Shown piece by piece: positions 53,210 to 56,027 of a stretch of DNA of 64,000 nt. The translations under genes and the position numbers were made by a program. Origin of the DNA: an alpha proteobacterium L41A (lineage in GTDB: Bacteria; Pseudomonadota; Alphaproteobacteria; Caulobacterales; Caulobacteraceae); the NCBI GenBank assembly GCA_000335735.1, contig AMYY01000018.1:1-64000 (forward strand), in the 5' to 3' direction. The notes under the pieces are model-generated. The model worked only from the letters and a program-made list of their open reading frames with translations. It ran no database searches and was not told the origin of the DNA. How positions within the stretch are numbered: position 1 is the stretch's first letter; each line of letters opens with the position of its first letter.

Positions 53210-54901
53210 TCACCGCATCCACAGCGTCGCCGGGTTTTCCAGGAGCCCCTTAATCCGCTGCACGAACACCGCCGCATCATGCCCATCGACAATGCGGTGA
53301 TCGAAACTGGACGACAGGTTCATCATCTTGCGCACGACCATCTGGCCGTCCTTGACCATGACCCGTTCGGCGATCTTGTTCGGACCGACGATGGCGACCT
53401 CGGGGTGGTTGATGATCGGGGTGTGAACCACCCCGCCCAGCGTGCCCAGCGAGGTGATGGTGATGGTGGAGCCGGACAGCTCCTCGCGCTTGGCCGAACC
53501 GTCCTTGGCGGCGCCCGAGACGCGGGCGATCTCCAGCGCCGTATCGTAGGGGTCGCGCGCCTCGGCGTGTCGCACCACCGGCACCATCAAACCGTTCGGG
53601 GTCTGGGCGGCGATGCCCAGATGGACCGGGGCGTGCTGGGTCAGAACGCCGGCATCGTCGTCATAGGTGGCGTTGATCTGGGGCTGGTCGCGCAGGGCGA
53701 CCACGATGGCGCGGGCGATGAAGGGCAGGACGTTCAGCTTGGGCTGATCCTTGGACTTCGTCGCGTTCAGGTGGGCGCGCAGCTCCTCCACGGCCGTCAT
53801 GTCGATTTCCTCGACATAGGTGATGTGGGGAATGCGGCGCACGCTCTCGGCCATCTTCTCCGCAATCTTGCGGCGCAGGCCGATGATCTTGACCTCGGTC
53901 GTCCCTTGCGCCTTCGCATAGGTCGAGCCGCCGCCGGACGGCGCCGACGCGGGTTGCGAACCGCCGCGCGCGATGAAGCCGTCCAGATCCTCGTGCGTGA
54001 TCCGACCCGCCGGGCCGGAACCGGGCACGAAAGTCAGATCGACGCCCAGATCCCGCGCGCGATTGCGCACGGCCGGCGAGGCCGACGGGCGTTCGCCGGG
54101 CGCACGTCCCGTCAGGGCGGGAACGGGCTTGGAGGGCGCAGTCGCTGAAGTCGCCCTCTGAGCTGTCGAAATCGCGGCGGGAGCCGTCGTCGCATTCCCG
54201 GCCGGCTTCGGGGCCGGTTTCGGCGCCGCGACGGGCGTCGAGACATTGCCCCGACCCTCGACATCGAACGCGACCAGCGGCCCGCCGACCGGCGCCGACT
54301 TGCCCGCCTCGCCGTACAGGGCGACGACGGTTCCGGCGACCGGCGAGGTGATCTCGACCGTGGCCTTGTCGGTCATGACATCGGCCAGGATCTGGTCTTC
54401 CTCGACCGCGTCCCCGACCTTGACGTGCCAGCCGACCAGTTCGGCCTCGGCCGTGCCTTCGCCGACGTCAGGCAGTTTGAAGACGTAATTGCCCGATGTC
54501 GGTGCGGCGTTAGAGAGCCCCTCCACCGCTACGCGGTCCCCCTCCCCACCGTCGTGGGGAGGAGACGATGCAGCGACAGTCTCCTCCCCGCGCGAAGCGG
54601 GGGGAGGTGGCTCGGAGCGAAGCGGAGAGACGGAGGGGTTCTCTTCGGCATTGCCCGCGCCCTCGACCTCGAACTCCACCAGAGGGCCGCGAACCGGCAC
54701 CATGGCGCCGGGTTCGCCATGCAGGGCGACGACCTTGCCGCTGACCGGAGCGGTGATCTCGACCGTGGCCTTGTCGGTCATGACGTCGGCGACGATCTGG
54801 TCCTCGGCGACCGTGTCGCCGACCTTGACGTGCCATCCGACCAGTTCGGCCTCGGCGGTGCCTTCGCCCACGTCGGGCAGTTTGAAGACGAAACGACCCA
54901 T
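53210..54901 (-). CDS. bkdB: Branched-chain 2-oxoacid dehydrogenase E2, dihydrolipoyl acyltransferase with two lipoyl domains (563 aa)
   Basis: The core of the branched-chain 2-oxoacid dehydrogenase complex. Two lipoyl domains (about 1-80 and 138-215) have lipoyl lysines at 44 and 179 in DVMTDKATVEIT. A subunit-binding domain (about 275-312; PAVRNRARDLGVDLTFVPGS) and the acyltransferase domain (about 335-563; HITYVEEIDMTAVEELRAHL, SLGTLGGVVHTPIINHPEVA and SFDHRIVDGHDAAVF with the catalytic histidine) follow. The linker between the lipoyl domains (about 86-130) is coded by palindromic repeat DNA. It lies one base after E1 beta and four before the small secreted protein gene. Confidence 0.95.
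   Translation of the reverse strand: MGRFVFKLPDVGEGTAEAELVGWHVKVGDTVAEDQIVADVMTDKATVEITAPVSGKVVALHGEPGAMVPVRGPLVEFEVEGAGNAEENPSVSPLRSEPPPPASRGEETVAASSPPHDGGEGDRVAVEGLSNAAPTSGNYVFKLPDVGEGTAEAELVGWHVKVGDAVEEDQILADVMTDKATVEITSPVAGTVVALYGEAGKSAPVGGPLVAFDVEGRGNVSTPVAAPKPAPKPAGNATTAPAAISTAQRATSATAPSKPVPALTGRAPGERPSASPAVRNRARDLGVDLTFVPGSGPAGRITHEDLDGFIARGGSQPASAPSGGGSTYAKAQGTTEVKIIGLRRKIAEKMAESVRRIPHITYVEEIDMTAVEELRAHLNATKSKDQPKLNVLPFIARAIVVALRDQPQINATYDDDAGVLTQHAPVHLGIAAQTPNGLMVPVVRHAEARDPYDTALEIARVSGAAKDGSAKREELSGSTITITSLGTLGGVVHTPIINHPEVAIVGPNKIAERVMVKDGQMVVRKMMNLSSSFDHRIVDGHDAAVFVQRIKGLLENPATLWMR
54514..54644. repeat. Palindromic GC-rich repeat element inside the E2 gene
   Basis: CCCCTCC at 54518-54524 and GGAGGGG at 54632-54638 bracket two hairpins. 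One is perfect (CCTCCCCAC at 54541-54549 with GTGGGGAGG at 54554-54562); the other is near-perfect, with arms around 54583-54591 and 54597-54607. From memory, elements built this way are abundant between genes in Caulobacter and Brevundimonas genomes. Here it lies in coding DNA and is read in frame. Confidence 0.7.
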
Positions 54902-54902
54902 A

Positions 54903-56027
54903 TCAGCGACCTCCCGTCATGACGCTCTTCAAGGCGTCTGCGACCCTTTGCGGTCCGGGGAAATATTCCCATTCGAAAGCGTGCGGATAGGGCGTGTCCC
55001 AACCGGTGACGCGCGCGATCGGCGCCTCCAACGAATAGAAGCAGCGCTCCTGCACCAGGGCCGACAGCTCGCCGCCGAAGCCCGAGGTCTTGGGCGCTTC
55101 ATGCACGATGACGCAGCGCCCGGTCTTCTTCACCGAGGCCTCAATGGCTTCGATGTCAAGCGGCACGAGCGAGCGCAGGTCGATGACCTCGGCGTCCACG
55201 CCCGCGTGCTCGGCACCCGCCAAGGCGACCCAGACCATGGTGCCATAGGCCAGAATCGTGACGTCGTTTCCTTCGCGCATCACGCGCGCCTTGCCGATCG
55301 GCTCGACATATTTGCCGGTCGGGACCTGAGCCAGATCCTGGGCCTTCCACGGCGAGACCGGCTTCTCGTGCCAGCCGTCGAACGGGCCGTTGTAGAGGCG
55401 TTTCGGCTCAAAGAAGACGACCGGATCGTCATCCTCGATTGCGGCGGTCAACAGGCCCTTGGCATCATAGGGGTTGGACGGAATGACGACCTTCAGGCCC
55501 GCGATATGGGTGAACAGGCTTTCGGGCGACTGGCTGTGGGTCTGGCCGCCGAAGATGCCGCCGCCATAGGGGCTGCGCACCGTGATCGGCGAAGTGAACT
55601 GACCGCCCGAGCGGTAGCGCATCTTGGCCGCTTCCGAGACAATCTGATCGTAGGCCGGATAGATGTAGTCGGCGAACTGGATCTCCACGACGGGACGCAG
55701 GCCATAGGCGCCCATGCCGATCGCGGCGGCGACGATGCCGCATTCCGAGATCGGGGCGTCGAAGCTGCGGGTCAGGCCGTGCTTTTGCTGCAGCTTGTCG
55801 GTGACGCGGAAGACGCCGCCGAAATAGCCGGCGTCCTCGCCGAACGACAGGACGTTGGCGTCTTCCGCCATCTTGACGTCGATGGCCGAGTTCAGCGCCT
55901 GGATCATGTTCATGGGGACCACGCCCGCGCCCGTCGCTTCCGAGGCGGGGGCGGCGTTCTGGTCGACCATGTCGGGCTCGACGCCGTCGTTGCGATCGGC
56001 GTCGGTGAAGGTGGTTTGCTCGCTCAT
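54903..56027 (-). CDS. bkdA2: Branched-chain 2-oxoacid dehydrogenase E1 beta subunit (374 aa)
   Basis: The transketolase-like beta subunit that, with E1 alpha, decarboxylates branched 2-oxo acids using thiamine diphosphate. After an acidic N-terminal extension of about 38 residues come MNMIQALNSAIDVKMAEDAN, VLSFGEDAGYFGGVFRVTDK, FDAPISECGIVAAAIGMGAY, GLRPVVEIQFADYIYPAYDQ, RSPYGGGIFGGQTHSQSPES and a C-terminal IDLRSLVPLDIEAIEASVKK, then RCVIVHEAPKTSGFGGEL, all standard. It begins two bases after the E1 alpha stop. Confidence 0.95.
   Translation of the reverse strand: MSEQTTFTDADRNDGVEPDMVDQNAAPASEATGAGVVPMNMIQALNSAIDVKMAEDANVLSFGEDAGYFGGVFRVTDKLQQKHGLTRSFDAPISECGIVAAAIGMGAYGLRPVVEIQFADYIYPAYDQIVSEAAKMRYRSGGQFTSPITVRSPYGGGIFGGQTHSQSPESLFTHIAGLKVVIPSNPYDAKGLLTAAIEDDDPVVFFEPKRLYNGPFDGWHEKPVSPWKAQDLAQVPTGKYVEPIGKARVMREGNDVTILAYGTMVWVALAGAEHAGVDAEVIDLRSLVPLDIEAIEASVKKTGRCVIVHEAPKTSGFGGELSALVQERCFYSLEAPIARVTGWDTPYPHAFEWEYFPGPQRVADALKSVMTGGR

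Follow-up and report, generated by a model that had tools for sequence, protein, structure and literature searches.

Results

A repeat element lies in frame in the first linker of BkdB

The window analyzed here is a 64,000-nt stretch of the genome of the alpha proteobacterium L41A, a Brevundimonas going by its named relatives, and it harbors a bkdB-type gene for the E2 component of a 2-oxoacid dehydrogenase (Table 1). Pfam matches in the product were two Biotin_lipoyl domains, E3_binding, and 2-oxoacid_dh, and the domain order is lipoyl 1, linker 1, lipoyl 2, linker 2, E3-binding, and catalytic. Judging from its sequence, the product is the E2 of a branched-chain 2-oxoacid dehydrogenase; it carries a pair of lipoyl domains and is otherwise a normal BkdB. 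Linker 1 contains a translated repeat element, which lies in frame between both lipoyl domains and contributes residues ~86–129 of BkdB (about 44 residues; peptide 'ENPSVSPLRSEPPPPASRGEETVAASSPPHDGGEGDRVAVEGLS'). In a relative that is 94% identical (G079), linker 2 holds a different REP element. In the AlphaFold model, residues 82–137 and 217–270 have no secondary structure and a pLDDT of mostly 26–39, whereas both lipoyl domains have a pLDDT of about 70–89; the catalytic domain was modeled poorly because of a shallow alignment, and the model serves only for this contrast between lipoyl domains and linkers.

Table 1. Features of bkdB and its linker-1 element in the window, and repeat types of BkdB linkers.
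Feature	Position	Strand	Basis or description
bkdB-type 2-oxoacid dehydrogenase E2 gene	53210..54901	-	Open frame, 563 aa, Pfam domains
Lipoyl domain 1	54674..54886	-	PF00364 match
Lipoyl domain 2	54269..54481	-	PF00364 match
Linker 2 (approximate bounds)	54095..54250	-	Ser/Thr-rich, non-repeat in host genome
Translated REP-pair element, family A, linker 1	54514..54642	-	blastn copies (query 10–138) elsewhere in genome; fold z -5.2
Left outer inverted arm, pairs with 54622–54644	54512..54534	.	Repeat finding; CCCCTCC at 54518–54524
Right outer inverted arm	54622..54644	.	Repeat finding; GGAGGGG at 54632–54638
Inner hairpin, left unit	54541..54562	.	CCTCCCC-n8-GGGGAGG, then AGAC(G) tag towards centre
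Inner hairpin, right unit	54583..54607	.	GTCT tag before hairpin, towards centre
Repeat type A			PSVSPLRSEP..GEGDREAVEG
Repeat type B			SPFPLEGGRAGDGGG..TPTQPSPLEGEG
Repeat type C			PSTASRSPSPDGGG..SPPAGGSTRAAGEGG
Repeat type D			PPSNPAPQASVP..GGQ
Repeat type E			SPASPVLPPRGGD..

In the bkdB copy, two REP-like units meet head-on, with the tags facing inward and 20 nt separating the hairpins, enclosed by outer arms that are 78% complementary. The coding-strand RNA of the element was predicted to fold with -84 kcal/mol (z = -5.2), and none of 200 shuffled sequences was equally stable. A first-pass annotation of this DNA had described a two-hairpin palindromic element with CCCCTCC/GGAGGGG ends, placed in frame between the two lipoyl domains and supplying about 45 residues of linker. 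Its architecture was confirmed by the arms, the inner hairpins, and the fold, its position by the open frame and the Pfam matches, and its length agrees with the residues counted above.

Pairs of the inner stem vary among copies (AC..GT, AT..AT, GC..GC) beside the fixed CCTCCCC/GGGGAGG with pairing preserved, as judged by eye from the hairpin listing and not by a covariation statistic. Read with the tag first, units start with CGTCT (20) or TGTCT (6) among 88 strand-wise hairpin matches, a total that counts both strands and partial duplicates. The stem starts with CCTCCCC and is bordered by T.T or C.A mismatches; AT pairs at the first and second stem positions and a CCA tail are absent from the units. 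GANTC does not occur in 54514–54644, and Rfam gave no match at E ≤ 1 across 54000–55200.

Copies of the element elsewhere in the genome

Using a blastn-type search, we compared the element with the whole host assembly (3.11 Mb, 67 contigs). It matched 81 pieces, which we merged into about 40 distinct places, and the best other full-length copy is 81% identical. Many copies lie at contig ends, because repeats break assemblies. Most are bordered by coding frames rather than located within them, and the 64-kb window contains no further copy. In the usual intergenic arrangement of the host, the units are reversed, so that the GTCTCC/GGAGAC tags point outward with about 91–100 nt between the hairpins (spacer such as CGCATCACAGGCGCCTGTGGGACTTCAAGA). 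The tags-inward arrangement of the bkdB copy is rare; among the other resolved copies, C6:103575 and C31:15277 are alone in sharing it. We rejected the possibility that freedom from stops is confined to this arrangement, because copies with outward tags have some open frames too. The many copies speak for the intergenic-repeat family proposed in the first-pass annotation, but the arrangement in bkdB is atypical of the intergenic copies in this genome and the element is not the CIR of Caulobacter (see below).

Several copies are located in or near other genes. The copy at C31:15277–15394 lies in frame within a second host gene ('...AETKNPSPASRSPSPQSGEEAPADLSPPHAMGRGTAQGDGGALDAVTLV...'), which we take to be a ligase-associated DEXH helicase, as recognized from its sequence rather than by a family search. 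The copy at C6:103575–103702 (L002) lies between glyQ and glyS. A different repeat is found in frame within glyS of a relative (G091 C1:1255285; L286). In relatives, close copies are in frame in three genes (at L275, L281, and L286), presumably carB, queA, and glyS, respectively, these also being recognized from sequence and not by a family search.

In the host, a sucB-like gene (C36:28471–28905; L156) is cut off by a contig end in its second lipoyl domain. Tandem lipoyl domains probably confused the assembly there, and the same cause may underlie single-lipoyl bkdB calls in draft genomes.

Linker types across Brevundimonas

A bkdB match was obtained in 114 of the 121 Brevundimonas genomes, and about 100 Brevundimonas bkdB genes were read for linker types. 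Each of the two linkers consists of plain Ala/Pro sequence in some genes and of a repeat element in others, with at least four different elements involved (Table 1), type E being type C in reverse orientation. At least nine element-by-linker combinations occur, in both orientations; for example, L049 and L045 carry the same element in opposite orientations in linkers 1 and 2, and both are open. Among orthologues the linker is not conserved at the protein level, and close relatives have Ala/Pro sequence or other repeats there, which is in line with the insertion seen by the first-pass annotation. In other Caulobacteraceae genera (L246, L248, L249), the linkers are repeat-like by sequence and of other types.

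We searched the genomes of eight relatives with their own linker DNA. Repeat-type linkers recurred with 15–66 pieces each, Ala/Pro and Ser/Thr linkers gave only self-matches among the matches listed, and only 3 pieces matched in a control genome whose linkers are plain.

Linker 2 also has a Ser/Thr type, which is distinct from both the Ala/Pro linkers and the genomic repeats and shows TTCGACGAC-like codon runs ('ENSTTNSAVTSTT', 'KTSTT'). It is present in the window and in L033–L039, L043, and L066. This class ('NATTAPAAIST...', 'KTSTT') was considered as a further repeat and rejected, because no genomic copies were among the matches listed. Shorter in-frame palindromes nested in a larger repeat element were seen in linker 1 of L059 and L121 and in linker 2 of L127 (CGTATACG core; GAGGATCGTATACGATCCTC; GAGGACGGCTCGTATACGAGCCGTCCTC, translated EDGSYTSRPQ).

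BkdB linkers, but not PDH-E2 linkers, match genomic repeats

Linkers were compared, at a cut-off of E ≤ 1e-5, with a library built from repeats outside bkdB. Matches were found for 43 of the 101 sequences of linker 1 and for 40 of the 98 of linker 2, versus none of 199 codon-shuffled bkdB linkers and none of 30 Ala/Pro linkers of PDH-E2 from the same genomes. The cut-off was adopted after a looser one (E ≤ 1e-3) had passed 3/30 PDH and 10/199 shuffled linkers. Where a genome had both genes (29 genomes), a repeat was present in 14 bkdB genes versus 0 PDH-E2 genes (Fisher p = 1.5e-5). The remark of the first-pass annotation that a flexible linker is the one place where such an insertion would be tolerated was too simple: the closely similar PDH-E2 linkers are free of repeats, and the presumed carB, queA, and glyS genes have in-frame copies.

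When the linkers were grouped at E ≤ 1e-3, mean lengths were 53 and 50 aa for REP linkers versus 38 and 41 aa for plain linkers (linkers 1 and 2), so that REP linkers exceed plain ones by only about 14 and 9 residues, respectively. This excess is less than one full element, which indicates that part of the old linker was lost. We conclude that clean insertion alone does not account for the REP linkers.

When linker states were placed on a tree of the catalytic domains of 104 genes, REP versus non-REP changed 31 times in linker 1 and 29 times in linker 2, and the full linker class 40 and 48 times, respectively; these counts are unrooted and do not separate gains from losses, and interspecies recombination could inflate them. 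Sister species with similar flanks differ in one linker only, namely, L031/L034 in linker 1 and L031/L032 in linker 2.

Constraint on the translated repeat

In six family-A carriers, substitutions in linker 1 by codon position were 0.111/0.130/0.225, compared with 0.050/0.024/0.214 in the catalytic domain. Indels preserve the frame, and in L041 and L042 changes of +4 and -1 offset each other and restore it. In families A and C, a single codon phase accounts for 58 of 62 CCCCTCC ends, a count that is weakened by shared ancestry and does not represent independent choices; the favored phase reads PSTASRSPS, not PLHRFAVPLP or APPPLRGPPP. As far as substitutions and frames tell, constraint on the family-A linker 1 is relaxed, yet not frame-free.

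Discussion

Origin of the repeat linkers

The sequence comparisons point to insertion of a REP-type, non-autonomous repeat pair into the disordered lipoyl linker of BkdB, where it was translated and retained as a flexible tether; we assign this reading a probability of about 0.88. The palindrome is GC-rich, has no stops, and lies in a phase giving a peptide rich in Ser, Pro, Gly, Glu, and Asp, which would behave as any flexible tether and could be kept for that reason. The insert would arrive by a process of REP dispersal that does without a RAYT in the host. As a point against this reading, neither a mobilizing enzyme nor a target-site duplication was found. The former Ala/Pro linker would for the most part be lost at or after insertion, and linker alleles may then be reshuffled between species by recombination. 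Selection would target the frame, the length, and the hydrophilicity of the linker instead of its particular residues.

Linker alleles might be swapped between species via homologous recombination in the conserved lipoyl domains, with few true insertions, so that the patchiness is mostly allele traffic. We consider this a serious contender, at a little less than even odds. The family-A linkers of L031, L032, L037, L040, L041, and L042 align over their full length with the same flanks, their sister species being plain, and linker 2 of L259 (G217) looks chimeric, its 5' half being of family A and its 3' half of family C, both as expected from exchange. However, the element-by-linker combinations in both orientations match the host's own genomic repeats, and trees of the immediate flanks lower the change count only slightly (32–40 vs 37–40 changes; 32 and 38 vs 37 and 40), a drop too small to be decisive.

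The hairpin itself could instead be functional in bkdB mRNA or DNA, for stability or for translational pausing between domains, with the protein insert as a by-product. The very stable fold of the element and the strong hairpins given by all the different repeats at the bkdB linker site would fit this idea, but neither the sequence nor even the presence of a hairpin is conserved, and the plain linkers, which make up roughly half, show no excess folding, so we regard it as improbable. Convergent, low-complexity GC-rich coding sequence that resembles a REP, to which the high-GC genome and the Pro/Ser/Gly-rich peptide might lend themselves, has practically no chance of being correct, because it is refuted by full-length genomic copies at 81% identity outside genes and by the absence of matches in the codon-shuffled linkers.

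A bolder proposal is that the two BkdB linkers of Brevundimonas are an active, preferred site of REP landing and exchange under RAYT-free dispersal, where REPs supply ready-made disordered linkers that turn over faster than speciation. We put it forward tentatively, as rather unlikely.

REPs are termed extragenic, and bkdB shows a route of such DNA into working proteins. A single, easily aligned gene together with the negative control of PDH-E2 can be read as a natural archive of how repeats insert, how they are oriented, which codon phase they take, and how they are lost, and it opens to testing whether such repeats, once translated, are used as linkers or simply tolerated.

Comparison with known repeat systems

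The CcrM-associated intergenic repeat (CIR) of Caulobacter is about 110 bp long and forms a hairpin with two arms (Chen and Shapiro, 2003; outlined in PMC2229807), a design that the bkdB element shares within Caulobacterales. According to PMC2229807 and PMC10969869, CIRs are reported to lie exclusively between genes and to have stops in every frame. The CIR has GANTC, whereas the bkdB element has none, is intragenic, and is open. An identity with the CIR was rejected on these grounds, that is, the lack of GANTC, the location in genes, and the open frames.

REPIN/BIME elements are inverted pairs of short palindromic units, as is the bkdB element, but they go together with a RAYT. No RAYT (Y1_Tnp) transposase was found in the host genome at E ≤ 1, and across the genus it was found in just 1 of 61 genomes. 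RAYT was rejected as the mover of the element, because it is absent from the host and from 60 of the 61 genomes. MITEs are recognized by a target-site duplication and by terminal inverted repeats that match an autonomous element; in the bkdB element, inverted ends were observed.

Di Nocera et al. (2013; PMC3733652) described high-copy palindromic units that are mostly intergenic and often dimeric, some of them being translated in frame as 20–82 aa within conserved genes. Their CGTC class, with C. crescentus among its species, has no link to any transposase. The Brevundimonas units share the unpaired CGTC/TGTC/CCTC-type tag with this superfamily but lack the AT pairs and the CCA tail of its families, which have an 8–9 bp stem. 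With the intragenic REPs they have in common copy number, dimers, and in-frame copies in conserved genes. The text of that study does not mention Brevundimonas, lipoyl proteins, or dehydrogenases, and recB of two Xanthomonas species is the sole example that it gives of insertions at the same site, versus the genus-wide hotspot in bkdB. In the open-access papers searched, we found no report of two linkers of one gene being a hotspot for several unrelated REPs while the PDH-E2 linkers remain clean. We conclude that translated REPs are already known, and that a genus-wide hotspot with fast turnover is new.

The Rickettsia palindromic elements (RPEs) are palindromes of about 105–150 bp inserted in frame in unrelated conserved genes, and their effect on host proteins is neutral or mildly harmful (Ogata et al., 2000, 2002, according to PMC2229807 and PMC10969869). 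The comparison with RPEs made in the first-pass annotation is valid as an analogy, because the Brevundimonas repeats, too, are found in frame in unrelated genes; the likeness drawn here is one of insertion mode. RPEs belong to another lineage with another base composition, whereas in Brevundimonas the linkers of one gene have been hit repeatedly by different repeat families.
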